Shown: positions 25,332-38,462 of the stretch, in pieces
Position numbering within the stretch: the stretch's first letter is position 1
Layout: every line of letters starts with the position of its first letter
Source of the DNA: Planctomycetia bacterium
GTDB lineage: Bacteria > Planctomycetota > Planctomycetia > Pirellulales > PNKZ01
Length of the DNA stretch: 38,462 bases
Reading direction: 5' to 3'
Assembly (NCBI GenBank): GCA_021413845.1
Contig: JAIOPP010000061.1
Span: 1 to 38,462, forward strand
Notes under the pieces: model-generated
The model's input: the letters and a program-made list of their open reading frames with translations, nothing else
What the model was told of the DNA's origin: nothing
Database searches by the model: none
Position numbers and translations under genes: made by a program

Positions 25332-27704
25332 ATGAATCGTTCTCGCTACTTAGCGGTTCTACCTTATCTAAGCGCTTTCGCCATCATTGCCGTGGCCGTG
25401 CTGACGTCGGATCATCGGGTAAGTCTTCCATTCTTCGTTTTCGTCGGCCTTTGCTTTGCCTATCTGATGCGCTCGGAGCAACGAGCGAAAAATGAACTCG
25501 AACGAGAGCTTACCGAGCGCAAGCGAATCGAAGCCGAGCTCCAGGCCAGCCAAGACCAGTTCTATAAGTTCGTGGAAAACGGACTGTTCGCCGCCTTCAT
25601 CAAAGACGAGCGGGGAGCCTACGTCTTCGTCAATAAATTCGTCGAGCGCAACTTCGGCCGCGAGCGAGCCGACTATCTCGGCAAGACCGACGGAGAAATC
25701 TATCCCGCCGACCTCGCCAAAGAGTACGTCGAGAACGACCACCGAGCGTTAAGCGAAAACGCCTCCGTCCCTTTCGATGAAACCTCGCACTCGCCGGACG
25801 GCGCCGTTCGCTATTGGTCCACGATCAAGTTTCCTTTACGGGACGCCGACGGACGACAACTGCTCGGGGGCATCGCCGTGGATGTCTCCGAGATTCGCAA
25901 AGCGGAACGACAAGCCAAAGAGAGCGAAGACCGGTTGCTGCTCGCTTTGGAAGCCGGACGGATGGGGATCTGGTTGTGGGACCTGGCGACCAATCGCGTC
26001 CAATCATCGGAAACGCAAGCCAAGATTCACGGCCGCTTGCCCGAGCAGACGGAAACGCGAATCGAAGATTCCTATCACCACATCCATCCGGACGACAGAG
26101 CAAGCGTCCGGCAGGTGATCGAAAGTGCGATGCGAAACGAAGCCCCGGATCGAACCACGTATCGGGTTGTGTGGCCGGACGGCAGCATTCACTGGGTCGA
26201 AGCCATCGGCCGTGTCTCTTGCGATGCGTCGGGAGTTCACACCCAGGTCACGGGCGTATGCGTCGACATCACCGAGCGGAAACATGCCGAGAACGCTCTG
26301 CGCGAATCCGAAGAACGTTTTCGACTGTTAGCGATGCACGCTCCGGTCGGCATCGTCCTCTGCGACGCCGAGGGGCGAACGTTATTTGCCAACCCGAAAG
26401 TGTGCGAACTAGCCGATGCTCTGCCTGAGGAAGTGATGGGCTTCGATTGGCAGACGTTCATCCATCCGGACGATCGCCAGGGATTGCTCGAGGCGTGGCG
26501 CTCGGACATCGCCGCCGGGAAGATTCATTCGTCGGGCGAATTTCGGTTCGTTCGTAAAGATGGCTCGATCCGCTGGGCTTCCTCGACCGCCTCGCTCGTA
26601 CATGATGCCAACGGAACTCCGATCGGCCAGATCGGCATTACGCTGGATATCACCGAACGCAAAGCGGCCGAAGATCGGCTCCGAACGAGAGAGGCGCAAC
26701 TCGGCGGCATCCTCGATAACACGACGGCGGTCGTTTACCTCAAAGATTCGGAGGGACGATTCCAACTCATCAACCATCGCTTTGAAAGCATTTTCCAGGC
26801 TTTGGGGCAAAGTTTCATCGGTAAGAACGACACGGAAGTTTTCCCGGAACCTCTTGCCCGCAAATTTTTAGAGTCGGACGCGCAGGTATGGCGCGAACAA
26901 ATCGCCCACACCTTCGAGGAAGACGCGCCGCACGCCGATGGCTTGCACACCTATCGATCCGTCAAGTTCCCGGTTCGAGACGCGACGGGAAAGATGATCG
27001 CGCTCGGCGGGATCTCGACCGACATCACCGATTTGAAGGAAGCCTACGAAGCCTTGCGAAAAAAAGAAGAACTCCTGCGCAATCTGATCGAAGTTCAGGA
27101 AAGCGAGAAACGGTTTCTCTGCCACGAATTTCACGATGGATTGATTCAGTACGCCGTAGCATCGTTGATGGCCTTGGAGACGCACCGCCAGAAGCAACTG
27201 GCCGATGTGTCACCGATCATCGACACGGTGATCATCGACACCGTGATCGGCAACTTACGACGAGGCGTCGACGACGGCCGACGCGTCATTCGAGGCATTC
27301 GGCCTGCCGTATTGGACGATTCCGACCTGCCCGCCGCGATCGAGGACCTGATCGGGCAGTTCGAGACTTCTGGAATGCACGTAACCGGCAAATGCGATCC
27401 CGAAATCGGCCGCTTACCCGAGGCGATTCAAACGACGATCTATCGAGTCGTGCAGGAAGCCCTGAACAACGCGAAGAATCACAGCGGCACGGATGTGGTT
27501 CGGATCGAGCTGAAGAAAACCAGCGACGGCCTGCACTTGGAAGTCAGAGACTTCGGCTCCGGTTTCGACGTTCGCTCCTCTCGCAAGCAGGGCTTCGGCC
27601 TCCTCGGCATGGCGGAACGAGTGCGGCTCCACGGCGGCGACTTGAATATCGACAGCGAACCCGATGTCGGCACTCGTATCTCGGTCCGCCTGCCGATTCC
27701 ATAG
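25332..27704 (+). CDS. Multi-PAS sensor histidine kinase, NarL-partner (HisKA_3) type
   Basis: The 790-residue protein begins with two close membrane helices (7-26 and 31-47) and a short coiled coil. Four PAS domains follow: about 75-190, 200-320, 325-445 and 452-570, each closing with the 'DITERK/DIT' PAC signature. The HisKA_3 dimerisation domain has 'CHEFHDGLIQYAV' with the phosphoacceptor His601. The C-terminal HATPase has the N box 'VVQEALNNAKNHSG', 'DFGSGFD' and 'GFGLLGMAERV'. Such kinases phosphorylate LuxR/NarL-type response regulators, and no regulator gene is in the window, so it is an orphan. The second and third PAS are of the PAS_3 type ('HPDDR') and may bind small ligands. A near-perfect 15-bp tandem duplication codes IIDTVIIDTV in the dimerisation region. 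Confidence 0.95.
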   Translation: MNRSRYLAVLPYLSAFAIIAVAVLTSDHRVSLPFFVFVGLCFAYLMRSEQRAKNELERELTERKRIEAELQASQDQFYKFVENGLFAAFIKDERGAYVFVNKFVERNFGRERADYLGKTDGEIYPADLAKEYVENDHRALSENASVPFDETSHSPDGAVRYWSTIKFPLRDADGRQLLGGIAVDVSEIRKAERQAKESEDRLLLALEAGRMGIWLWDLATNRVQSSETQAKIHGRLPEQTETRIEDSYHHIHPDDRASVRQVIESAMRNEAPDRTTYRVVWPDGSIHWVEAIGRVSCDASGVHTQVTGVCVDITERKHAENALRESEERFRLLAMHAPVGIVLCDAEGRTLFANPKVCELADALPEEVMGFDWQTFIHPDDRQGLLEAWRSDIAAGKIHSSGEFRFVRKDGSIRWASSTASLVHDANGTPIGQIGITLDITERKAAEDRLRTREAQLGGILDNTTAVVYLKDSEGRFQLINHRFESIFQALGQSFIGKNDTEVFPEPLARKFLESDAQVWREQIAHTFEEDAPHADGLHTYRSVKFPVRDATGKMIALGGISTDITDLKEAYEALRKKEELLRNLIEVQESEKRFLCHEFHDGLIQYAVASLMALETHRQKQLADVSPIIDTVIIDTVIGNLRRGVDDGRRVIRGIRPAVLDDSDLPAAIEDLIGQFETSGMHVTGKCDPEIGRLPEAIQTTIYRVVQEALNNAKNHSGTDVVRIELKKTSDGLHLEVRDFGSGFDVRSSRKQGFGLLGMAERVRLHGGDLNIDSEPDVGTRISVRLPIP

Positions 27705-27746
27705 CCGAGCCCGACCCAGAGGCCAAGCTCTTTGAAGGCCGACAAA

Positions 27747-27793
27747 TACCCCCAACAGGGCTCGAACCTGTAACCTGCCGCTTAGAAGGCGAT
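27747..27793 (-). other. 3' fragment of tRNA-Arg(UCU); candidate attachment site
   Basis: On the minus strand the piece runs from the anticodon arm to the discriminator base. It has loop CTTCTAA (anticodon TCT), most of the anticodon stem, a variable loop, a perfect T arm ACAGG-TTCGAGC-CCTGT and an acceptor half TGGGGGT plus A. No D arm or 5' acceptor half lies upstream, so it cannot be a working tRNA. Such 3' halves are left when an integrative element inserts in a tRNA gene. The orientation places the element on the right (higher coordinates) and the kinase on the chromosomal side. Confidence 0.8.
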
Positions 27794-27977
27794 AACAGGC
27801 CTAGGCCGACGCAGCTCTCAAACACTGGAAATAACGAGGTCTCACGTATTCGTGAGAACTTCGCGTACGTTCGCGAAGCGGTCGTTATCTTCCGGTGTTT
27901 TCATGGTAATGCAAACGAAAACTGGTAATCGTGGTACTCGCGCCAAGGCGACGATCGATAAAGGACTGGCAGAGCCT

Positions 27978-28290
27978 TCAGACTTGCTCTCGCAGGTCGG
28001 CAAGAAACTCAGAGGCCGGCTCGACGCTCGTGACGAGCAGGTGATCACGGGCTCGGGTGCAGGCGACGTAGAGGAGATGCCGTTCCGTGTCATAGACCTC
28101 TTGCAGGTCGGCGTCGTCGCCGATCGCCTCGATGCGCTCCACTTCGTCGTCACAGGCCATCACCGCGACGGCCCGGAACTCCAGGCCCTTGGCCATGTGC
28201 ATCGTGCTTACGGCAACAAACCCTTCTTCTCCGTCGCCGACGTCATCGAGCACTTGGTACGCTTGTCCCGACTTCTCGACTGCGGCCTTA
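27978..28290 (-). pseudogene. C-terminal fragment of a UvrD/Rep-family helicase
   Basis: The frame reads AVEKSGQAYQVLDDV, 'VSTMHMAKGLEFRAVAVMACDDEV', 'VYDTERHLLYVACTRARDHLLVT' and 'PASEFLADL'. These are the last motifs (IV to VI) of superfamily 1 UvrD-like helicases. About 100 residues remain of a protein normally above 600; the ATP-binding Walker A part is missing, so it cannot be active. A stop lies in frame just upstream, where the sequence joins the truncated methyltransferase gene. It probably derives from a helicase gene once part of the restriction-modification island. A short internal gap after 'DDEV' relative to my memory of the family suggests further decay. Confidence 0.85.
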
Positions 28291-29320
28291 GCTCAGCTCT
28301 CTCCTCCGCACTAACTTGGCGAATTGTTTTTCCGTCCGGAGATTCAAGTTGATCATAACGGCCTCCTGTTCCTTCACCCTCTCCTAAAACCTTGGGAAGA
28401 TAGAGCTGACGATACTTCATGGTTTCCAGATTCTTCGCAAACCAAAGAATGTAGTCTGTCGTTCTTTTCAATCCCGAGGATCCGAGTCCGCCTCCCTTCT
28501 GGATAACGATATTCCCGAAGAAGTTGTCGGCACCGAATACTTCATCCATTACCGCCCGAACACGATGCACGTTTTCATCGCCGATCTGTACGAAGATCGA
28601 GCCGGTATCGGTGAGAAGATCGCGAGCTACGGTGAGACGATCACGGAGATAGGTTAGGTAACTGTGAATGCCGTCGCGCCATGTGTCGCGAAATGCTTTC
28701 ACCTGCTCCGGCTCACGCGTAATGTGTGCGGCATTACCGTCCTTCACGTCACGGCTCGTGGTGCTCCATTGGAAGTTGCTGTTGAACTTGATGCCGTACG
28801 GCGGATCGAAGTAGATGCATTGCACCTTTCCCCGTAGCCCTTCACGCTCGGCGAGGCTCGCCATTACCTGCAGCGAGTCGCCGAGGATCATTCGGTTCGT
28901 CCAGTTCTGATCGTGCTGGTAGAACTCGGTCTTGGCGTCTCCCTCGGGCACGCCGTTGAAGTCGCCGAACAGGTCGAGTTGGTGACCGCGGCCCGAGGCT
29001 CGAGCGGTTGCATCCTTGGCGACCTGCGACTGCCGCAAGAGGTCGTCAACGAGCACCTTCGGATGAACCTTCTCTTGGATGTAGAGGGGCGGAGCATGGA
29101 CGACGAGGTCGCTCCAATCCTGCTCGTCCTTACCGCGCCAAACGAGCTGCGGATCAAGATCGACGTTGCGCGGGTACCGCACCGGCACCGGCCGCTGCTG
29201 CTCTTGCTTCACGACCGACTGATACTCGGCCGTCGGAATGTTCTTCCGCTTATCGACGTCGTGCGTGATCGTCTCGACGGTCTTAGCCGGCGCGCCAGCC
29301 TTTGCTGCTTTCTTCGCCAT
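28208..29320 (-). pseudogene. Type III-like DNA methyltransferase (Mod), C-terminally truncated
   Basis: The first 340 or so residues match the large site-specific DNA methyltransferases of type III-like systems: 'LDPQLVWRGKDEQDW', 'PLYIQEKVHPKVLVDDLLR', 'WTNRMILGDSLQVMASLAE', and the catalytic motif DPPYG with Asp172-Pro-Pro-Tyr175. They continue with 'DTWRDGIHSYLTYLRDRL' and 'GSIFVQIGDENVHRVR'. Full-length members are about 900-1000 residues. Here homology stops near 28285 and the last 25 residues are out-of-frame helicase sequence. In this beta-type order the SAM-binding FxGxG motif lies C-terminal and is lost with the target-recognition region, so the enzyme should be inactive. It starts 21 bases after the dinD remnant. 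Confidence 0.88.
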
Positions 29321-30743
29321 GTCGTTGATACTGCGTTGGTTCTAGCCTTCTAGGGCGTCGGGATTCTTGAGAGACTTCTTGTCTTCGGAAGCGAGTCGTC
29401 GCTCTACCTTCTTCACGTCTTCCGACGGCGGAAGACTCTCGGGCCTGATGCCGCGTTCCAAGAGGGTCTTTCGGACGGCCTCGTTGTTGGTGATGTGTTC
29501 GCGCGAGATTTGACCCTCCGACGGGGACGCGCGGAAGCTTGACGATGCCGCACTCGATCGCGTCCATCAGCGAGAAGTCGCTCATGGTCCAAGGGAACAA
29601 GGTTCCCTCGGCGTAGTTCGAGCCGCGGAGAAAGAACGGCGTGGCCGACAGGTCGATCACGCGGAGCAGACCGAGCTTCCGTTGAACTGATTCGAGTCCC
29701 GAGATCCACAACCGCGCAGCTTCGTTGTTCCCTTCCGCTTCGAGTCGCTCTTCTCCTTTGAGCTCTTCTTCGTCGTCCTCCTTCGGCTTCTCGCGATAGC
29801 AGTGGTGGGCCTCGTCGTTCAACGCGAGAATGTTCTTCATGCCCATCAAGTCGGGCATGACGCGCTGGAGCATTTGGCCTTCGGTTTCGAGAGTCTTCAG
29901 TTCTTCGCCAAGCCGGCCTTGAAGCAACTGACGGCCACCTTTCGAGAGCTCGATCCGCTCGCGAAGTTTGAAAGCGTGGTAGTTCGTAATGACGATCTTG
30001 GCGCGATTGACGTCGTCGAGCATGTCTTGCGGCACGAGCTCGCGCGACGAATAGTAACTGTCCGGATCGTTCGGCTGCAGGACTCGCAGCCGGTCTTTGA
30101 TCGTGAGCCCCGGCGCAACGATGAGGAAGCCGCGGGTGAAGTTCTTGCTCCCGGGCCGACGGACGGCGTTGATCGTTTGCCAAGCGATGAGCATCGCCAT
30201 GACGGTCGTCTTGCCGGATCCGGTGGCCAGCTTGAGGGCCAGCCGCATTAGCTCGGGGTTAGCTTCCTTGTTGGCACGAGCAAGGTGGTCTAGCAGACGC
30301 TTGCCGGATTCGGAATGACGCGCCACCTCGGTGAGCCAGATCGCCGTCTCGACCGCTTCGATCTGACAGAAGAATGGCCGCTGGTTGCTGAACGGGTGAT
30401 TCCGCCAGTGTTGCAACAGACGAGCGGTTTCCGGAGTGACTTGCCATTCGCTGGAGTTCGTGCCGGATCGCCAACGGTCGACGTGGCCGCGGACCTCGTT
30501 GATGATCGCGGTGACTTCGTACTGTTGCGCTTTGGTCGAGATCCCCTCTTCGTCCGTGAGTTCGAGTTCCTTCTGTTTCGCCTTCCGTTTCTTCGGCTTG
30601 GGAATCGGCGTAATGAACTCGGCCCGCCGGCGGGCCTCGACGACCTTTTGCGTCGGCTGGCCCTGATCGTCAAGCTCCCAGTGTCGGTGCGGATACTCGT
30701 ACGGGGAGTTCAGGATCGGTCGTTCGAAGAACGGATTCGACAT
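29283..30743 (-). pseudogene. Type III-like restriction helicase (Res), C-terminally truncated
   Basis: The first 408 residues match the DEAD/DEAH restriction subunit that pairs with the neighbouring Mod. The N-terminus reads 'NPFFERPILNSPYEYP', Walker A is ATGSGKTT at 173-180, 'VITNYHAFKLRERIELSKGG' follows, DEAH is at 310-313, and 'DLSATPFFLRGSNYAEGTLF' has SAT at 366-368. Full proteins are near 1000 residues with helicase domain 2 and a C-terminal PD-(D/E)XK nuclease. Here homology ends at 'VKLPRVPV' (about 29522) and the remaining 78 residues are out-of-frame dinD sequence. ATP hydrolysis and DNA cleavage should both be lost. It is divergent from the clamp cassette, with a 367-base spacer. 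Confidence 0.88.
29342..29517 (-). pseudogene. C-terminal fragment of DinD-like protein
   Basis: In a frame different from res the sequence reads ISREHITNNEAVRKTLLERG, then 'IRPESLPPSEDVKKVERRL', then 'KKSLKNPDALEG' and a stop. This matches my memory of the end of DNA-damage-inducible protein D (DinD), which has the pattern 'H-NN-VR--L--RGI-PE-LPP-ED--K-ERR'. Only about 57 residues remain of roughly 280. DinD relatives are often found inside restriction-modification operons, which fits the position between res and mod. The upstream part was removed by the same deletion that truncated res. Confidence 0.7.
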
Positions 30744-31110
30744 GTGTCGGCTCGGACGTCACTGGTGCCACTTCGCGCAAGAGGTCGGCGGAAGGCACGT
30801 TGCAGACCTGCCGCCTGGGATGTGTCTTACCCCTCGATCGGAGTGACTTTAACAGAGTTGTTCGAGGCCGGCTATCGTCGGCGACGACGAACTCTCGCGG
30901 CTCGGCCCGGCAGGTTTCCTCATGTCGCTCTTCAACGGTGCGAATGTTCTAGCGCGCACCGCCATTCATTGTGCTCGTCGCGTTCCGGAGCCCTAAATAG
31001 CGACCGCGATCGCGTCACAGTAGGAGAGCGAAGGAAGTGCCTTTGCCGGCGCGCCTAGTCGGAAGAAACCGCAGGCTCGCACTAGCTCACCCTGTTTCAC
31101 TGGAGCCGAT
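30744..31110. other. Divergent spacer between the decayed RM locus and the clamp cassette
   Basis: About 370 bases without a convincing gene. It should contain the res promoter (leftward) and the promoter of the three-gene cassette (rightward). I see no strong -35/-10 pair, tRNA or integrase remnant. Confidence 0.5.
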
Positions 31111-31875
31111 ATGATCAGTTCTACGCTCATGAATCACTGCGGCGCACGGCAGGTCAACGCGGCGGAACTCGCGACGATCAAACCGCCGTCGCCGACGCGG
31201 ACTTGGTTTCCGCTCGCCCACCGTGCCGTGCTGGACTCGGTCTGCGCGACTCTCGACAGTGCCGGTTACGCGATCTGCCGTAGCCGGCTCTCCATCTCGC
31301 ACGACGGCGCTCGCTTCTTCGGCACGCTGGACCTCACGACGTCGATCAATGACGGAGTGTCGCTTGCCGTCGGCATTCGCAACTCGAACGATCAGAGCTT
31401 CCCGATCGGCTTCTGTTGCGGCCAGCGGGTTTTCGTTTGCGACAATCTCGCGTTCACGTCCGAGATCGTCGTCAGCAAGAAGCACACAAGGTTCGGTCAG
31501 GAGCGCTACCTCGAAGGGTTGGCCCGAGCCGTCGGCTCGCTCGATCAGTATCGCAGTTCGGCGGCCGGCTGGATCGAACGGATGCAGTCGTACGAACTCG
31601 GCGACGACATCGCCAACTCGCTGTTGCTGCAAGCCTACGAGCGGAAGATCGTCGGGCTCCGGCTGCTGCCGCTCGTGGTCGAAGAGTGGCGGAAGCCGTC
31701 GCGGGAGGAGTACCGACCGCGGACGGCCTATTCCCTGTTCAACTGCTTCACCGAAGTGCTCGGCCGCGAGCGTCAGTCGCGGTTTCCAGCCGAGTCGGCA
31801 CTAGAGACGATGCGGCTGAGCAAGTTGCTCGCGCCGCCATCGCTGGCTGAGACGTCGTATTCCGTCGCCTCGTAG
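31111..31875 (+). CDS. DUF932-like accessory protein
   Basis: The 254-residue protein has 'LDLTTSINDGVSLAVGIRNSNDQSFPIGFCCGQRVFVCDNLAFTSE' (about 72-117) and 'KKHTRFGQERYLEGLARAVG' after it. This resembles DUF932 / phage-plasmid-like proteins, whose signature is a 'vG.RNS.D.S....G..v.VC.Nl.f' core. The family is typical of plasmids, phages and islands and has no settled function. TGGAG lies five bases before the ATG. The gene is the first of three on this strand with spacers of 121 and 95 bases, each with its own ribosome binding site. An alternative start is Met7. The family call is by pattern only. Confidence 0.6.
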   Translation: MISSTLMNHCGARQVNAAELATIKPPSPTRTWFPLAHRAVLDSVCATLDSAGYAICRSRLSISHDGARFFGTLDLTTSINDGVSLAVGIRNSNDQSFPIGFCCGQRVFVCDNLAFTSEIVVSKKHTRFGQERYLEGLARAVGSLDQYRSSAAGWIERMQSYELGDDIANSLLLQAYERKIVGLRLLPLVVEEWRKPSREEYRPRTAYSLFNCFTEVLGRERQSRFPAESALETMRLSKLLAPPSLAETSYSVAS

Positions 31876-31996
31876 CCGCATCCGCTGTCGGTTCTGAATT
31901 TGTTACCGTTCTCTATCTCCCCGGTCGTTGCGTTGCATCGACGACCGGCAACGGTCGTCGTGACGTCGCGACCTTCCTTGTTGAAGGAGTCATTCG

Positions 31997-32194
31997 ATGA
32001 CCCAAGCCGAATTGGAAAACGAACTCGCCCGCTCGACGGGCGATTCCCTCTCGACGATCCGTCGTCACGGTTTCAACCTCGTCGAAGTTCCGGATGGCGA
32101 GCCGCTCCCGATCGACTGGGACGAACTGCAGCAGTTCGAGTCGCTTCGCTATCCGCCGCGCCGTCGGCCGGTTCGTCGCCAATTGGCGGCCTAG
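31997..32194 (+). CDS. Small hypothetical protein of the clamp cassette (65 residues)
   Basis: The product reads MTQAELENELARSTGDSLST, then 'IRRHGFNLVEVPDGEPLPIDWDELQ' and a basic Arg/Pro tail. The first 30 residues have helix-turn-helix character ('LARSTGDSLSTIRRHGF'), so it may bind DNA or an RNA-processing partner. AAGGAG (31984-31989) lies seven bases before the ATG, one of the best ribosome binding sites in the window, which supports a translated gene. It sits between the DUF932-like gene and the clamp-like gene in the same orientation. No family name is known to me. Confidence 0.72.
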   Translation: MTQAELENELARSTGDSLSTIRRHGFNLVEVPDGEPLPIDWDELQQFESLRYPPRRRPVRRQLAA

Positions 32195-32289
32195 CCGCTT
32201 CGATCGTCCGATCTCACACCTCGCACCCGTGTCGCTCGCTCCGGCGTCGGGGCGAGCGACACGGCTTCATTCCTTCTTGGAGACTCGCC

Positions 32290-33756
32290 GTGTTGACCAT
32301 CTCTCGTTCGATCCTCCGCCGCTTCCGCGCGCTTTGCCGTCGCGGTGGATTGCATAAGGCCGGCTCGGCCGGCTGCGTCGTGACGTTCGCCGGCGGTCCC
32401 GAGGGCTGTCGCATCCAGGCGGCCTCGACAGACGTCGCTATAGAATACTGTCATCCCGAACCTTGCGAGGCCGGGACAATCCGATTGCCGCTCGCCGCCT
32501 TGGAGGCCTGTGAGGGCCGCAATGATGAACTAGTGACGTTCGTCGTACGGCCAGACGACTCCGTCGAGCTCGTCTGGAACGACCACGGCGTCCCTCGGTC
32601 CTCGGAGCAGATTCAACCGAAGCCGAAGGGCGACGCGTTGCCGGCGTGGCCCAACAAGATGGCCAACAACGATGCCGAGGTCTGGCAGGCGTTGGCCGAC
32701 GCCGTCGAGACGACCGATCCGAAGTCGTCGCGCTACGCGCTCGGTTGCCTTCATCTTCGCGGAGCCGCAGGAACGGTCGAGGCGACTGACGGTCGCCAAG
32801 CGCTGATTGAGTGCGGATACCAGTTCGGCTTCGAGTCCGACGTCTTGATCCCGGCGACGAAGCTACTCGGCTGCGCTGACCTGAGTCCGTCCGAGGACTT
32901 TCGGATCGGCCGAACGGAAAAGAGCGTCGTGTTCGAGCTCGGATCCTGGCGGCTGACGCTACGCATCCAAGACGGCCGGTTCCCGAAGCTCGATCAGATC
33001 GTGCCGAGCGGTGCCGCAGTGAAGTCGACGCTTGAGCTCACAGCCGACGATGCTCGATTTCTTTGCGACGCAATCCCGCGACTTCCTTGCCATGACGGTC
33101 TCCATCGACCGATCACGCTCGACCTCAACGGGCAAGTGCTCGTCCGTTCTCGCGAGACCGAGACGGCCCGGCCGACTGAGTTGCAACTCGGCACGTCGAA
33201 ACTCGTCGGCGAGCCGATGGTGCTCAACACGAACCGCCGCTACGTCGAGCGAGCATTACGGCTGGGCTTCCGTAGCGTCGGCCTCTTTGGGCCGGAGTCG
33301 CCGGTGCTTTGCGTTGACGACCGCCGCCGGTTCATCTGGATGCTGCTCGACAAGGCCTCCGTCATTCCTCGGCACGACGATCCGATCCGAATGGCACCGG
33401 ACGTTGCGCGCCGGCCAAGCAATCATGCGAAACACGCCGAATCGGATCGCAGTTCCGCTTTGCCTCGTACTTCTAAACCCCAACCAGCGGAGGCCCCTAT
33501 GACCGTACCGATCAACAAGCAAGTTGCAGCATCGGCGACGGCGGTGACGCCGAACGATGCCAAGCCGGAAAAGCCGGCGCGCAAGAGTCCGGCCACGTCC
33601 ACAATCGAGCAGGCCATGGCGCTACGCGACACGCTTCGCAACGTCGCTCGACAGGCCGGCGAACTCGCCCGCTCGCTCAAGCAACAGAAGCGGCAGGCCC
33701 GGATCGTCGCGACTACGCTCGCGTCGCTCAATGAGCTACAGAAGGTGGCTGGCTAG
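32290..33756 (+). CDS. Divergent DNA sliding-clamp-like (DnaN-fold) protein with helical tail
   Basis: The 488-residue protein shows three successive regions that follow the pattern of the beta sliding clamp. Region 1 (about 5-105) has 'IQAASTDVAIEY' and 'AGTIRLPLAALEA', like the clamp N-domain. Region 2 (about 128-242) has 'WQALADAVETTDPKSSRYAL', 'TVEATDGRQALIE', 'SDVLIPATKLL' and 'LRIQDGRFPKLDQIVPSG', like clamp 'ATDGHRL' and 'LIEGRFPDY..VIP'. Region 3 (about 245-360) has 'TADDARFLCDAIPRLP', 'PMVLNTNRRYVERALRLG' and 'RRFIWMLLD', like the clamp C-domain. Residues 404-488 form a Lys/Ala-rich linker and a coiled-coil-like helix. The GTG start has GGAG seven bases upstream. It is not the housekeeping dnaN and its role is unknown. 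Confidence 0.72.
   Translation: MLTISRSILRRFRALCRRGGLHKAGSAGCVVTFAGGPEGCRIQAASTDVAIEYCHPEPCEAGTIRLPLAALEACEGRNDELVTFVVRPDDSVELVWNDHGVPRSSEQIQPKPKGDALPAWPNKMANNDAEVWQALADAVETTDPKSSRYALGCLHLRGAAGTVEATDGRQALIECGYQFGFESDVLIPATKLLGCADLSPSEDFRIGRTEKSVVFELGSWRLTLRIQDGRFPKLDQIVPSGAAVKSTLELTADDARFLCDAIPRLPCHDGLHRPITLDLNGQVLVRSRETETARPTELQLGTSKLVGEPMVLNTNRRYVERALRLGFRSVGLFGPESPVLCVDDRRRFIWMLLDKASVIPRHDDPIRMAPDVARRPSNHAKHAESDRSSALPRTSKPQPAEAPMTVPINKQVAASATAVTPNDAKPEKPARKSPATSTIEQAMALRDTLRNVARQAGELARSLKQQKRQARIVATTLASLNELQKVAG
33489..33501 (+). promoter_or_regulatory. Internal ribosome binding site and ATG inside the clamp-like gene
   Basis: GGAGG (33489-33493), a five-base spacer and an in-frame ATG (33499) precede the last 85 codons. 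The 40 residues upstream of this ATG look like translated spacer (Ser/His/Pro/Arg-rich). The tail may therefore also be made as a separate 85-residue protein. Confidence 0.6.
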
Positions 33757-33773
33757 GTTCGGAAATGCTAAGT

Positions 33774-33812
33774 CACTTGCGTCATCTCCGTCACCGGCCG
33801 ATGACGCAAGTG
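33774..33812. repeat. Perfect 12-bp inverted repeat after the clamp-like gene
   Basis: CACTTGCGTCAT and ATGACGCAAGTG face each other across a 15-base spacer, 18 bases after the stop codon. No T-tract follows, so it may be a Rho-type or processing hairpin, or a recombinase or regulator site. Confidence 0.75.
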
Positions 33813-34013
33813 CCGCGCATTCAAGCCGTGCGCACAGCGATTACCACAAACGACCGCCGTAGAACGGCACCCGAAATGCTCCTGTATCGGCAGCGTCCGC
33901 TCGTCGTGCCGAGAAGTGCGAGTTGCACCTAAGTGCGCGCTGCATAACGACTTCGACGCACACTGAAGCGAGTGTTAGATCGTGCGAGTCGACCGGACGT
34001 TCGACAGCGAACA

Positions 34014-34043
34014 TGAGCTAACACTAAGGCAAGTGTGAGCTCA
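34014..34043. repeat. Near-perfect inverted repeat at the edge of the accessory region
   Basis: TGAGCTAACACT and AGTGTGAGCTCA pair at 11 of 12 positions across a six-base spacer. The word AGTGTTAG recurs about 40 bases upstream. Together with the first inverted repeat, it makes 33757-34127 a gene-free stretch with several palindromic words. Confidence 0.6.
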
Positions 34044-34127
34044 GATGACCTAAATCACGGCGTTTAGCGACATCTCACACCTGGACAGCCGAAACACATA
34101 CGCGCTTTTCCAAAAACAGCGCGTCGA

Positions 34128-37100
34128 TTACTTAGGCGGCGTGCCGGTCGGCAGATCCCGGAACACGATATTGCGGAAACGTGCGGTCGCCGGCGCTCCT
34201 TGCGAGACGAGTTGCCAACCCGGGAGTCCACCGGGAGGAATATCGAACTCGCCGTCGGCGGTGGTCGTGCCGTTGAGCGTGATCGTCACATGCTTGCCGA
34301 CGACGCGGACCGTCATCCGATTGTAGTCGTCGGGCTTCACCAGCTTTTGGTACACGGCCGGATCGACCGACTTTACGACACCGTTGCGCGGTCCGCTTTG
34401 CCACCAGAGGCCCCCGTAGCCGGTCTTGCCGGTGCCGCCGATCTCGACTTGCGGGCCGGTCATCGTCGTGGTCCCCAGTGCTTCGTCAAACAGCGTGCTG
34501 CGGAACTGCACTCCGGAGTTCGCTTGGTCTCCCTCGAGTTTCACTTCGTACTCGAGTTCGAAATCACGATGCCGTTTCGCGCCGTAGAGAAACGTCGCTC
34601 CTTTGACCATTTGCATGCCGACGAGCTCGCCAGATTCCCATTTCCAAACGCCGGGCTTGCCGGTCCAGCCGGTGAGGTCGATGCCGTTGAAGAGCGGAAC
34701 GTCACCGGTCGACGATGCCGACGCGGGAGCGGCTTCGGCGACCGGCGTTAGGGTCATCTCGCGTACGAGGAAGCTCGCCTGACTGCCGAGGAACAAATTT
34801 CGTTTGTCGGGGACGTTCCAATTGGAAAACGTCGAGAACTTAGTCATGTCTCCCTGCCACGCGAGAATCTCTTTCCCTTCGCAGACGACGGTGACTCCGC
34901 TTTTGCGAACCGAGACGCGAATCGTGCTCGTCTTCCCCGGAGTGAGAACGGGGCCCGGATAGCTCGGTCCCGTTTTCCCCTCGATCATTTCCAGCGCGCA
35001 TTTCCCGGGCTTGCCGAAACCGTCGATGCAGATCGTCCCTTGCCGGCCCCGCGTCGTGAAGAAGAGATCGAACGCTTGGCCTTTGTCGTCGACCCTTTCC
35101 ACCTTTACGTCCCAATCGTACTCCTCCGGAGCTTCGTATGGGATCTTCACCAGCGACCATTGGGAGCCTTCGCTGGGCGACCTGAGTCCGCCAGGCCCCT
35201 TGGTCCATACGCCTCCGTTGAACGAGACTTTCGGATCGACAAGGGCAAGCAAGTCGACGCGGCCGACGGTCGGATTACCAGCCGTCACCGGTGCGACGAT
35301 TGAGACCGGCGACGCGGCCGTCACCAGCTTCGCCGTATGAAACGTCACGGGACGCTTCCATGATCCGATGCCAAGTCGGCCTGGGTGCTTCATCGGTGTC
35401 GAAGACTCCAAACTGAGCCGTTTGAAGTCGCCTGTCCAACTCACGAGTGGTCGGTCATCGAGAAACGTTTGTAACGAACCGCGACGCACTTTTACGACGG
35501 AACGGTAGCGCTTTCCGACGACCAGCGGCAGGTCCAATTGCATCGCCGCTTCGGTAATGTCCTTGGAGAATTTGCCGTCGAGCAGTTCGAAGCCGTACAG
35601 CGGCGGCGTACGGCCGTGGGCGTTCAGTTTCCATGCGAACATGCTCCCTTGCGACGCCAGATAATGGTTGACGTTCATCCCGGGTGCAGTCGGCGTGAAC
35701 TCGATCTCGAGATCGTATTCGTCGGGCGCATCGTAAGGAAACTGTAGGACACTCGCGCCCGTCGGGTTGTGTCCGGCGAGGCCATCCGGCAGTCGCTGCC
35801 ATTCACCGAGTTGAGCGTCGCGAGCGACGTCGATCAAAGCGAGAAGATCGACGGTCGAACCGGCGGCTGCTTTGACGCGCGGCGTGCCGTCGGGATTGAG
35901 CTCGCGGACGCGTAAGTTGCGCAACTCAACCTGTGTAGGATAGAGCTGCAGGCCGATTCGCCCGCGCAATCGCTTGGCTGCGATGTTTCCTCTCTCGACG
36001 ACTTGCGTGCCGTTAATAGAGACCCGAGCGTATTTATCGATTGCGGCCAAGTACAGCTTATGCCATTGGCCGGTCGGCGTACTGGGCTGTGGAATGGGGG
36101 CCGCCGCGTTATAAAGCGCACCCGTACGCTGTTTCTCCGAGTGATGGGAGAATTTAGGACTTTTGTCATCGAGAAGCTGCACCTCATGGAAGCTGCCGTC
36201 ACTCGAATTCCCTTCCGCCCAGGCTCGAATGAACACTCCGCTGTTGCTATCGGGCGCGAGCTTGTATTCGCATTCAAATTCAAAGTCGTCGTAGTCGGCG
36301 TCGGACATCAGCCAGCCGTGTGAATCGGTCGTGCTACCGACAATCACGCCATCGACGACCGTCCAGCGACCGCCTTTTTGCGGAGTCCAACCGGTGAGAT
36401 CGCGGCCGTTGAAGAGCGAGGTCCAGCCGGCGGTCGCAACGGGGCTCGGCGCGACGCTGAGCGGCGAACCGTCGGCGGCGACCCATTGCGCACCGACGAT
36501 CTGACCGTCGCGGCCGTGACCCGATGAGTCGACGGCGACGCTTCCCCGGCCTTCGTCGAAGCGATAGAGCGCGAGAGTGTCGCCGTCGGACGTGAGTTGC
36601 GGCGGAGGATCGAATCGGGCCGAGCCGGCATAGGGAAACGTTTTCGAAATGCGGACCTGATCGACGATGCCGGCGAAATCGCCGAACCCGATTCGCAGCG
36701 CGCCGCGCGGTCGCTCGCTGCGGATGGCACGATCGATCGAGTGGCCGTGGGAACGGAGCCCGTCGACGAAAACCTGGATATCATCTCCTCGCCAAACGCC
36801 TGCGACATGCACGCGTTTGCCGAGCTCGGCGGGGAAGAATGCAGTCCCACCCACTCTGGGATTGGCTTGAGGGCTGATCGTAAAATGCCAATCTTTCTTT
36901 CCGAACCTGAGCGCGAGTTGAGAACCTTGATCGTCGCCAATTCGAATGACGTCGGTAAAGGAATCGCCTGTCTTCAGCGGTGTGACCCAGGCCTCGATCG
37001 TCAGCGGCGGGTCGCCGTCGCAATGGAAGGTGGGGAACGAGACGAACTGCTCCTTCCCTTCGAACTTCAGGGCGGCATCGACCGCACCGGTCGACTGCGG

Positions 37101-38462
37101 CGGCCCCACCGGCAAGGTCGATGGGGTCGAGGCGGTCCATTCGACGTTGCAATTGGGAAAGACTTTCTTGAGATCCGCAACGCCCGCCGCCGTAACGCCC
37201 GTGCCGCCGAGCCTGACGAGATCCAATCCCGGCAACTTAGCGAGATGCTTGAGGCCGACGTTTGTGATTCCCTCGTTGCCTCGCAGATCGATTTGGCGCA
37301 ACGAAGTTAAGCGAGTCGCAACCCATTGCATGCCACGATCGGTGATGCGACCTCCGGCGATTTGAAGCGAGTCTAGCTTCGGTAAGTCTGCCATCTGCTC
37401 AAGGGCCGTGTCCGGACATCTTAAATTCGTAACGTTGATTTCGAACAGCCGACTCAGCCCATGGATCTCCGGAAGCGAGTCGATCGGAGGAGCACCGCGT
37501 GCGATCTTCAGGACGTAGAACGGTTCGCGTGGAAGCGCCGATTTGCTCAGCACCCTGGTTGAACCGAATGCGCCGCTTCCCGCAAAAACGATTTCGCAAG
37601 AGCCCGTTCCGACAAAACACCATTCCGCGGCGGCCCGATTCCTTTGTGCTTCCGCCGCCGTGATTCCGGTTGTGGTCGGTGCGGCGGGCGTCGGCTTCAC
37701 TTCCACGCTCGCCCCGTTCGGCACGTTCACTTCCGCGACGACGTTGCCGTCTTTGTCGCGCACGGTCACGATGATGCCCGCGACGAGCAGCAGCGCCGCT
37801 CCGATGATCCCGCCGGCGATCAGCTTCACGTTCTTGGGCGGCGATTTAGTCTTCTTCGCAGCGGGGCGCGGCTGCGGAGACGCAGCGGGCGCGACGCCCG
37901 CTCCGGCCGGCAGCACTTCGCTTTTCGGGTCCGTTTCGGCAGCCGACTTATCGAACTGCGCCGTGACATCGAGCTGCGCCGCGTTCGCGGTCTTCGATCC
38001 GGCCTCCGGTTTCACCGGCGACACCGCAGCGCCCCCCTTCGTCATGCCGCCGGCAGTCGTCGGGCTATTCCCCATCGACTTCATGAACGAGGCGAGCTCG
38101 GCGTTTCCTCCGCCGCTCGAACCGGAGCCGGATCGCGAGCCGCTCGACGAACTTCCGTCGCTGAACGGCCCCAGCGCCGTAATCACTTCGTCCATCGTTT
38201 GGAAGCGATCTTGCGGCCGCTTGGCGATCATCTTGTGAAACGCTTGTTCGAGCGCCCACGGCACGTCGTCGCGCGTCTTCACCAGCGACGGCAACTGCCC
38301 ATCGCGATGCGCCATCAGCCGGCCGATCATCGAGTCACTCTCGTACACCTTCCGCGCCGTCAGCAGAAACCAAAGCGTGCAACCGAGCGAGTAGATGTCG
38401 GCTCGGGCATCGGCCGTTTTCGTGTTCGCCGCCTGCTCGGGACTCATGTAGTCGACCGTACC
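34128..38462 (-). CDS. Receptor-like Ser/Thr protein kinase fused to LRR, LamG-like and DUF1080 domains (5' end cut by window)
   Basis: The gene runs off the window, so the N-terminal kinase lobe is missing; 1444 residues are visible. Counting from the first Met, residues 1-95 are the C-lobe of a Hanks-type kinase (MSPEQA, 'ADIYSLGCTLWFLLT', 'RPQDRF'). Residues 96-205 are a Ser/Gly/Pro/Ala-rich cytoplasmic linker and 207-228 a membrane helix. Residues 300-430 are leucine-rich repeats ('GMQWVATRLTSLRQIDL'). Residues 455-650 are a LamG/concanavalin-like domain ending 'LALYRFDEGRGSVAVDSSGHGRDG', and about 665-860 a first DUF1080 domain ('LFNGRDLTGWTPQ'). Two repeated domains start 'VDLLALID/VD' (about 875 and 1065), and a second DUF1080 domain runs from about 1250 to the end. 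The sensor part is extracytoplasmic and may bind carbohydrate; both DUF1080 units may be non-catalytic. Confidence 0.93.
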   Translation of the reverse strand, partial: GTVDYMSPEQAANTKTADARADIYSLGCTLWFLLTARKVYESDSMIGRLMAHRDGQLPSLVKTRDDVPWALEQAFHKMIAKRPQDRFQTMDEVITALGPFSDGSSSSGSRSGSGSSGGGNAELASFMKSMGNSPTTAGGMTKGGAAVSPVKPEAGSKTANAAQLDVTAQFDKSAAETDPKSEVLPAGAGVAPAASPQPRPAAKKTKSPPKNVKLIAGGIIGAALLLVAGIIVTVRDKDGNVVAEVNVPNGASVEVKPTPAAPTTTGITAAEAQRNRAAAEWCFVGTGSCEIVFAGSGAFGSTRVLSKSALPREPFYVLKIARGAPPIDSLPEIHGLSRLFEINVTNLRCPDTALEQMADLPKLDSLQIAGGRITDRGMQWVATRLTSLRQIDLRGNEGITNVGLKHLAKLPGLDLVRLGGTGVTAAGVADLKKVFPNCNVEWTASTPSTLPVGPPQSTGAVDAALKFEGKEQFVSFPTFHCDGDPPLTIEAWVTPLKTGDSFTDVIRIGDDQGSQLALRFGKKDWHFTISPQANPRVGGTAFFPAELGKRVHVAGVWRGDDIQVFVDGLRSHGHSIDRAIRSERPRGALRIGFGDFAGIVDQVRISKTFPYAGSARFDPPPQLTSDGDTLALYRFDEGRGSVAVDSSGHGRDGQIVGAQWVAADGSPLSVAPSPVATAGWTSLFNGRDLTGWTPQKGGRWTVVDGVIVGSTTDSHGWLMSDADYDDFEFECEYKLAPDSNSGVFIRAWAEGNSSDGSFHEVQLLDDKSPKFSHHSEKQRTGALYNAAAPIPQPSTPTGQWHKLYLAAIDKYARVSINGTQVVERGNIAAKRLRGRIGLQLYPTQVELRNLRVRELNPDGTPRVKAAAGSTVDLLALIDVARDAQLGEWQRLPDGLAGHNPTGASVLQFPYDAPDEYDLEIEFTPTAPGMNVNHYLASQGSMFAWKLNAHGRTPPLYGFELLDGKFSKDITEAAMQLDLPLVVGKRYRSVVKVRRGSLQTFLDDRPLVSWTGDFKRLSLESSTPMKHPGRLGIGSWKRPVTFHTAKLVTAASPVSIVAPVTAGNPTVGRVDLLALVDPKVSFNGGVWTKGPGGLRSPSEGSQWSLVKIPYEAPEEYDWDVKVERVDDKGQAFDLFFTTRGRQGTICIDGFGKPGKCALEMIEGKTGPSYPGPVLTPGKTSTIRVSVRKSGVTVVCEGKEILAWQGDMTKFSTFSNWNVPDKRNLFLGSQASFLVREMTLTPVAEAAPASASSTGDVPLFNGIDLTGWTGKPGVWKWESGELVGMQMVKGATFLYGAKRHRDFELEYEVKLEGDQANSGVQFRSTLFDEALGTTTMTGPQVEIGGTGKTGYGGLWWQSGPRNGVVKSVDPAVYQKLVKPDDYNRMTVRVVGKHVTITLNGTTTADGEFDIPPGGLPGWQLVSQGAPATARFRNIVFRDLPTGTPPK

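Follow-up and report, generated by a model that had tools for sequence, protein, structure and literature searches.

What does a gene for a sliding-clamp-like protein do away from the replication genes of a planctomycete? The window, that is, the whole stretch of 38,462 nucleotides analysed here (contig C61 of the genome of a Planctomycetia bacterium), contains on its forward strand a gene whose product the initial annotation laid out along the three domains of a beta clamp, placing it in an accessory region. The gene, its clamp core and its central signature are located as follows.

32290..33756, + strand: divergent beta-clamp gene, 488 aa, GTG start (open reading frame, profiles, AlphaFold2 model)
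32290..33360, + strand: three-domain clamp core, residues 1-357 (high AlphaFold2 confidence, VIA match to a solved clamp)
32782..32805, + strand: clamp signature ATDGRQAL (ATDGHRLA in E. coli)

The frame comprises 488 open codons, with GGAG 7 nt 5' of the GTG, a start site common to most aligned relatives. Searched as a single sequence, the protein matched PF02767 at E 0.19, below the Pfam cut-off, TIGR00663 (dnaN) at E 3.4e-5 and phrog_947 (processivity factor) at E 1.8e-8 over residues 26-324. A profile of 23 family members retrieved 23 distinct PDB sequences at E <= 0.01, which were beta clamps without exception (best 1.4e-9). Profile-profile comparison of the clamp family with DnaN, represented by 19 planctomycete rows and E. 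coli, gave a match of 99.4% (E 1.5e-20) over residues 1-355, at 14% identity. The AlphaFold2 model built from the 23 sequences (pLDDT 85.2, pTM 0.72) has the clamp fold at residues 1-357. Foldseek reached 8e-21 with this model, and bacterial clamps alone were among the 50 matches listed. VIA superposition on a solved clamp aligned 338 residues (Z 30.3, rmsd 2.5 Å, 16% identity). By its predicted three-domain fold and homology along the chain, the protein is a member of the beta sliding clamp superfamily, and the three domains proposed from the sequence are upheld both by the model and by the full-length family match to DnaN. Chance resemblance is ruled out by the PDB matches, the Z-score and the profile-profile E value.

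The protein is separate from the housekeeping clamp. The canonical dnaN of this genome adjoins dnaA on contig C146, which rules out the window gene as the sole dnaN and confirms the proposed second clamp in an accessory region outside the replication locus. Against TIGR00663 the window protein scores about 23-23.9 bits, and the curated cut-off is 137.65 bits. Among 30 genomes (the window's and 29 relatives), 29 have one dnaN above this cut-off, and the thirtieth is 75% complete. Bacteria with two or more clamps, through duplication or transfer, are reported in PMC8357120, so a second clamp as such is already known. A maximum-likelihood tree (75 rows) has a long branch with 100/100 support that separates 55 clamp-like rows from 20 of DnaN, the latter being one from E. 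coli and 19 of 29 planctomycete DnaN, taken from one strand. The tree program cautioned that long branches, including those of E. coli and L022, might be grouped artificially and that some long rows may be misplaced. The second-clamp family is a clade apart from DnaN.

The family also differs from DnaN where clamps meet DNA and partners.

32305..32343, + strand: strongly basic helix that opens domain 1, residues 6-18, a predicted lining of the DNA channel

The DNA channel of beta clamps is lined by helices of this kind. Residues 6-19 carry a net charge of +4 to +6 in 11 of the 12 clamp members listed (+2 in one, which has a shifted start), whereas the corresponding helix of the eight DnaN proteins listed carries -1 to +1. 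All 23 clamp rows have R13 and R148 (R152 in E. coli). We take T172, G174, R176, P242, R246 and the C-terminal MPMR of E. coli to be the residues of the partner pocket. In the profile alignment, T172 and G174 are each kept in 22 of 23 clamp rows and P242 in all 23. The R176 position, however, holds Q in 19/23 rows and H in 4/23, R246 is R in just 7/23, and the proline of MPMR is retained in 6/23 (W350 is found in 21/23 and L353 in 23/23). The DnaN partner pocket is therefore altered at R176, R246 and MPMR and kept at T172, G174 and P242. This combination of a basic first helix, conserved R148 and R13 and a changed pocket suggests that DNA holding has been retained while partner choice seems to have shifted. 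In sum, the window clamp shares with DnaN (TIGR00663; PF00712/PF02767/PF02768) the three-domain fold, the ATDG signature, the FP motif and the full-length profile match, and departs from it in its 14% identity, its score far below the TIGR00663 cut-off, its basic first helix and altered pocket, its linker and helical tail, and its accessory, multicopy locus.

The tail follows the clamp core and may have a start of its own.

33406..33594, + strand: disordered linker, residues 373-435 (pLDDT < 50 at 373-400 and 404-435)
33601..33750, + strand: basic C-terminal helix, residues 438-487, kept in most members, not in all
33489..33501, + strand: GGAGG inside the clamp gene and, 3' of it, an ATG in frame at codon 404 (sequence read)

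The extra helical tail seen in the initial annotation appears in the AlphaFold2 model as one long helix. The last 55 residues are basic (net charge +1 to +7), and the alignment shows most of the tail missing from several members. The ATG at codon 404 is a possible internal start that would make the tail alone. A methionine is found near this codon in many relatives. On contig C158 the tail is encoded without the core.

We determined the gene order around the clamp from iterated profiles over 46 loci and 13 more, with genes called by profile alone. The order is DUF1257, DUF2997, AAA ATPase, a DUF3150-like gene (d), e, HTH-like gene, clamp, f and a Cas4-like nuclease. All nine genes occur in order at L037, L052, L061, L063, L153 and L154; many other loci are cut by contig ends or are without f and the nuclease. 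There are 45 clamp-bearing loci, of which L016 and L043 are one place and many are truncated by the end of a contig. Among unit genes, the nearest one 5' of the clamp is the HTH-like gene in 33 of these loci (gap at most 2.8 kb, median 106 nt), and the nearest one 3' is f in 27 (gap at most 4.8 kb, median 127 nt); in 26, f is succeeded by the nuclease at a median distance of 2 nt. Two genes precede the clamp in the window.

31997..32194, + strand: 65-aa HTH-like gene, the usual partner 5' of the clamp, conserved across loci
31111..31875, + strand: DUF932-like gene, 254 aa, a partner mainly in the window's own genus

The initial annotation had put these two genes and the clamp forward as a three-gene cassette. 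The HTH-like gene is real, conserved (dN/dS 0.10 against the copy on contig C1) and a constant partner, but the label "HTH" finds no match in Pfam, PHROGs or NCBIfam. The DUF932-like gene is under similar constraint in three comparisons with relatives (dN/dS 0.11-0.15), but it occurs in only 6/45 clamp loci and 1/13 further loci (L159, in another family), so that the trio gives way to a unit of nine genes. Its label is weak as well: DUF932 (PF06067) gave 14.4 bits in the window (E 0.032) and 16.9 bits in a relative, below the Pfam cut-off of 23 bits. Within the window's genus it belongs to an alternative upstream part, being followed by an ATP ligase and a WGR protein in four loci and standing alone upstream in two, the window included. 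The ligase (PF01068 1.5e-8, PF14743 8.7e-30; WGR 2.8e-18) has, read by eye, a SWIM-type zinc motif.

The nuclease matches PF12705 (PD-(D/E)XK, 2.6e-31) and the phage exonucleases of phrog_69 (7.6e-27). It resembles Cas4/AddB-type nucleases in PF12705, in a Cas4 profile match (7e-12) and in its cysteines (by eye, one close to the N-terminus and three at the C-terminal end), and differs from them in being encoded after f and the clamp, in a conserved order without cas1/cas2 or addA. The AAA protein fits PF00004 best (classical AAA, 8.6e-25) and the phage clamp-loader family phrog_168 weakly (0.00095); it is presumably Ycf46-like. An AAA antitoxin related to Ycf46 is mentioned in PMC10954446. Gene d is 34-35% identical to Manganitrophus plasmid proteins annotated as DUF3150 and is homologous to them, although a Pfam search of d gave no DUF3150 match. 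For the modelled structure of f (pLDDT 72), a Foldseek search at E 0.001 gave no match. Canonical clamp-binding motifs were conserved in none of the nine partner families except for QLLL/QLML in the nuclease (17 matches in 28 sequences, 14 of the 17 being listed), which we take as a putative part of the nuclease motif rather than a clamp-binding site. Such a result speaks against a simple tool belt like those already known, and is in keeping with either a changed code or an absence of recruitment. The literature searched, mostly without subscription papers, held no description of the clamp family or the unit and no mention of DUF3150, in agreement with the first impression that no system of this composition had been described.

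The window copy is a reduced one. The genome holds three full clamp copies plus fragments, and the unit genes that the window lacks beside its DUF932-like gene, HTH-like gene and clamp are found on C1, C54, C96 and C158. The C1 copy comprises DUF932, ligase, WGR, HTH and clamp; C54 has d, e, HTH, clamp, f and a shortened nuclease; C96 runs from DUF1257 to HTH, with a decayed clamp (2 stops) and f; and C158 has f, the nuclease and the tail mentioned above. Window and C1 copies are 82-84% alike in DNA, minus ligase and WGR, up to the clamp stop codon, where the likeness stops. Clamp dN/dS is 0.14 (window-C1), 0.25 (window-C54) and 0.24 (C1-C54), values by which the clamp is under purifying selection. 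The open frame and the dN/dS of 0.14 exclude a pseudogene in the window. The most complete operon of the genome (L027:1261-9691, on C96) is the one with the decayed clamp, retaining DUF1257 to HTH-like and f; over d-e-HTH it shares 91% identity with C54.

Within the window's order, the clamp family is present in 21/196 genomes (E <= 1e-14). At E 0.001, 43/196 genomes matched; the further 22 were not counted as family, at least G014 and G021 being ordinary DnaN. In a sample of the phylum it is present in 14/392 genomes (E <= 1e-20), and the members from order and phylum all belong to one class. Planctomycete names are attached to 25 of 27 clamp loci; one is labelled Nealsonbacteria and one "bacterium" alone. 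We compared the operon of G104, from the window's order, with that of G219 (family f21), from another order, and found 90% and 86% DNA likeness over 2.5 and 3.3 kb. The alike block runs from DUF1257 into f; at this level a portion of d and the greater share of the nuclease gene are not alike. Because the operon DNA is 86-90% alike where the dnaN proteins of the two genomes are 45% identical, the unit has, by this comparison, evidently been transferred between orders. Genomes contain up to four unit copies. Three are present in Planctomycetales bacterium 10988, with 93-94% likeness over 4.6-6.3 kb, and G547 has four, of which three are alike over about 6.4-6.5 kb at 83-84% and the fourth has a worn AAA gene. 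The surroundings of the copies are mostly unlike, apart from an extra 1.6 kb common to two G547 copies and 0.5 kb common to two 10988 copies. The 3' ends of the copies lie at terminator-like hairpins, and no end inverted repeats of 11 bases or more were found in three G547 copies.

Parts of the unit have relatives on plasmids and phages. AAA relatives were detected in 95 phage records at E 1e-8 and in 687 plasmid records at E 1e-20; 31 and 16 of these records, respectively, cover 80% of the protein. On the Candidatus Manganitrophus plasmid CP114554, AAA, DUF1257, DUF2997, DUF3150-like and e adjoin one another as in the unit; the plasmid set differs in having AAA first and, within a 25-kb stretch, no match to HTH-like, f, nuclease or clamp. 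Tunturiibacter phage Tunturi_3 has AAA, DUF2997, e and DUF3150-like within 5 kb, and farther along an annotated Cas4-domain exonuclease without a match to the unit nuclease profile. The clamp family was not found in Tunturi_3 or anywhere in the plasmid record, nor in 50,697 phage records, and a scan of viral contigs for a clamp with two short patterns yielded 0/36 candidates. A plasmid search gave one weak match (28% identity) on an unannotated Subdoligranulum plasmid. Phage beta clamps (phrog_947, BFVD clamps) share with the window clamp the fold and a placement apart from the host dnaN locus, but the ten best viral structure matches (BFVD) are 12-18% identical to it. Plasmids and phages thus have a part of the unit in common with these planctomycetes, and the clamp seems to have joined the unit within Planctomycetia. 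On a Cupriavidus taiwanensis plasmid (L079), a DUF3150-like gene lies between ATP-binding and VWA-like proteins, near PRTRC genes, a placement which suggests that DUF3150 proteins work with ATPases.

We assessed whether the unit lies among defence genes. At E <= 1e-40, 135 flank proteins matched 63 PADLOC profiles and 127 control proteins matched 25. The flank set comprises 132 of 156 proteins plus three from the window, with genes called by a crude length and GC rule and with long, short and overlapping calls dropped by hand before scanning; the control set was drawn from 20 places in 8 genomes (135 of 160 proteins sampled, 8 of > 900 residues dropped). The 25 of 63 flank profiles listed include Cas3, HmaA, DrmA/DrmD/DrmMI, BrxH, mad2 and NsnA, methylases of types I, II and III (type III being the window's own) and nine kinase (PD-T4-6) profiles. 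A second flank set of 77 proteins matched 17 profiles at the same threshold, among them a type I methylase, DISARM/BREX-type helicases, HmaA, DpdE and HEC-04. The matches of the control set include 15 profiles of one kinase group, RtcR-like, RecD, mad6 and PDC-S68. The unit thus has defence genes among its neighbours; since profiles rather than proteins were counted, and helicase profiles overlap, we note that this signal is an association rather than a statistic. Within the unit, AAA matched IetA (8.7e-13) and the nuclease matched DruK (3.1e-13) and Cas4, which we take as broad-family likeness; the clamp and the DUF932-like gene had no PADLOC match at E 0.01.

In our preferred reading, to which we give a probability of roughly 0.45, the product of the window gene is a second and probably orthogonal beta clamp, belonging to an accessory module for DNA processing that is mobile within Planctomycetia. 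The computed results behind this reading are the clamp fold, the clade apart from DnaN, purifying selection, the recurrent gene order with AAA ATPase and nuclease, horizontal transfer, the multiple copies and the defence genes nearby. The initial annotation had suggested element replication, repair or defence, for example through competition for polymerase or its recruitment, which stays a conjecture. Such a clamp would probably form a dedicated DNA ring for an accessory repair, defence or element-maintenance system. A ring of two subunits would encircle the DNA, with the basic helices holding the duplex and the altered pocket taking the module's own partners instead of polymerases with the usual motif; this ring would then keep the nuclease, joined in the window's genus by the ligase and the WGR protein, at sites where incoming or damaged DNA is broken or nicked. 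We consider a role for the host, in repair or defence, somewhat more likely than a purely selfish one. The unit, however, includes no polymerase or clamp-loader gene, and the window copy has no nuclease, AAA or ligase gene alongside, both of which count against the accessory module. Rather doubtful is the more specific proposal that the clamp, unusable with the ordinary partner code, is the hub of a nuclease-ATPase (ligase-WGR) complex on invading or broken DNA.

The main rival, possible if on balance improbable, is that the unit is the replication or recombination part of a mobile element of plasmid or phage descent, now chromosomal, whose clamp serves the element. The gene sets of the Manganitrophus plasmid and Tunturi_3 speak for this, as relatives of AAA, DUF2997, DUF3150-like and e on both would fit an element's own use, and so do the likeness of the nuclease to phage exonucleases, the existence of phage-borne beta clamps, the several and partly decayed copies, and three resolvases, two integrases and two transposases among the 135 flank proteins. 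Yet none of the nine conserved genes is an integrase, a replication initiator or a structural gene, the likeness of repeated copies stops near the 3' terminator-like hairpins, and the clamp family itself was not found in the Manganitrophus plasmid, in Tunturi_3, in the 50,697 phage records or in the viral contigs scanned with two short patterns. Quite unlikely is a decoy, in which the protein would mimic DnaN, resist loading and titrate the clamp loader or polymerase so as to halt phage or host replication. The kept fold with an altered pocket (R176 changed to Q or H in 23/23 rows, MPMR changed) and the several copies near defence genes would suit it, but the DNA-facing first helix is more basic, not less, and the central signature and R148 are kept, as expected for a DNA-bound ring. 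That the gene is a redundant housekeeping copy with no special role, as the extra clamps of some bacteria reported in PMC8357120 might suggest, is highly improbable given the separate deep clade, recurring partners, cross-order transfer and dN/dS well below 1.

Bacterial clamps are usually viewed as one essential, mostly vertically inherited protein. If the accessory-module reading is true, clamps have also been recruited into accessory systems, here as a deep sister family that is accompanied by a nuclease and an ATPase of its own, at some loci also by a ligase, and that has defence genes nearby. The family would then offer a test case for the re-coding of clamp partner specificity and a context for DUF1257, DUF2997 and DUF3150-like genes; a hub role would make it in principle a bacterial counterpart of the specialised clamps of eukaryotic DNA surveillance.

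Two structures flank the clamp gene in the window.

32227..32264, + strand: 17-bp hairpin between the HTH-like and clamp genes, no T run
33774..33812, + strand: 13-bp inverted repeat just 3' of the clamp stop (sequence read; absent from the terminator-scan list)

The hairpin is strong by z-scores from plain, not dinucleotide, shuffles; the same one is found with changes in the C1 copy, and the C54 copy has another hairpin. It is a possible regulator of clamp expression, and the inverted repeat could be a putative transcript end. An Rfam scan of 27000-34500 gave no match. Directly 5' of the cassette, 27978-30743 (- strand) holds shortened type III restriction genes (methylase of 370 aa, Res of 486 aa) and, by eye, a short piece resembling the end of a UvrD helicase; it looks like a worn defence stretch. 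Tail to tail with the clamp gene, 34128-38447 (- strand) encodes a 1439-aa protein whose N-terminal part is kinase-like by eye. Comparable giant genes lie near the copies on C1, C54 and C158, and they might aid recombination between copies.
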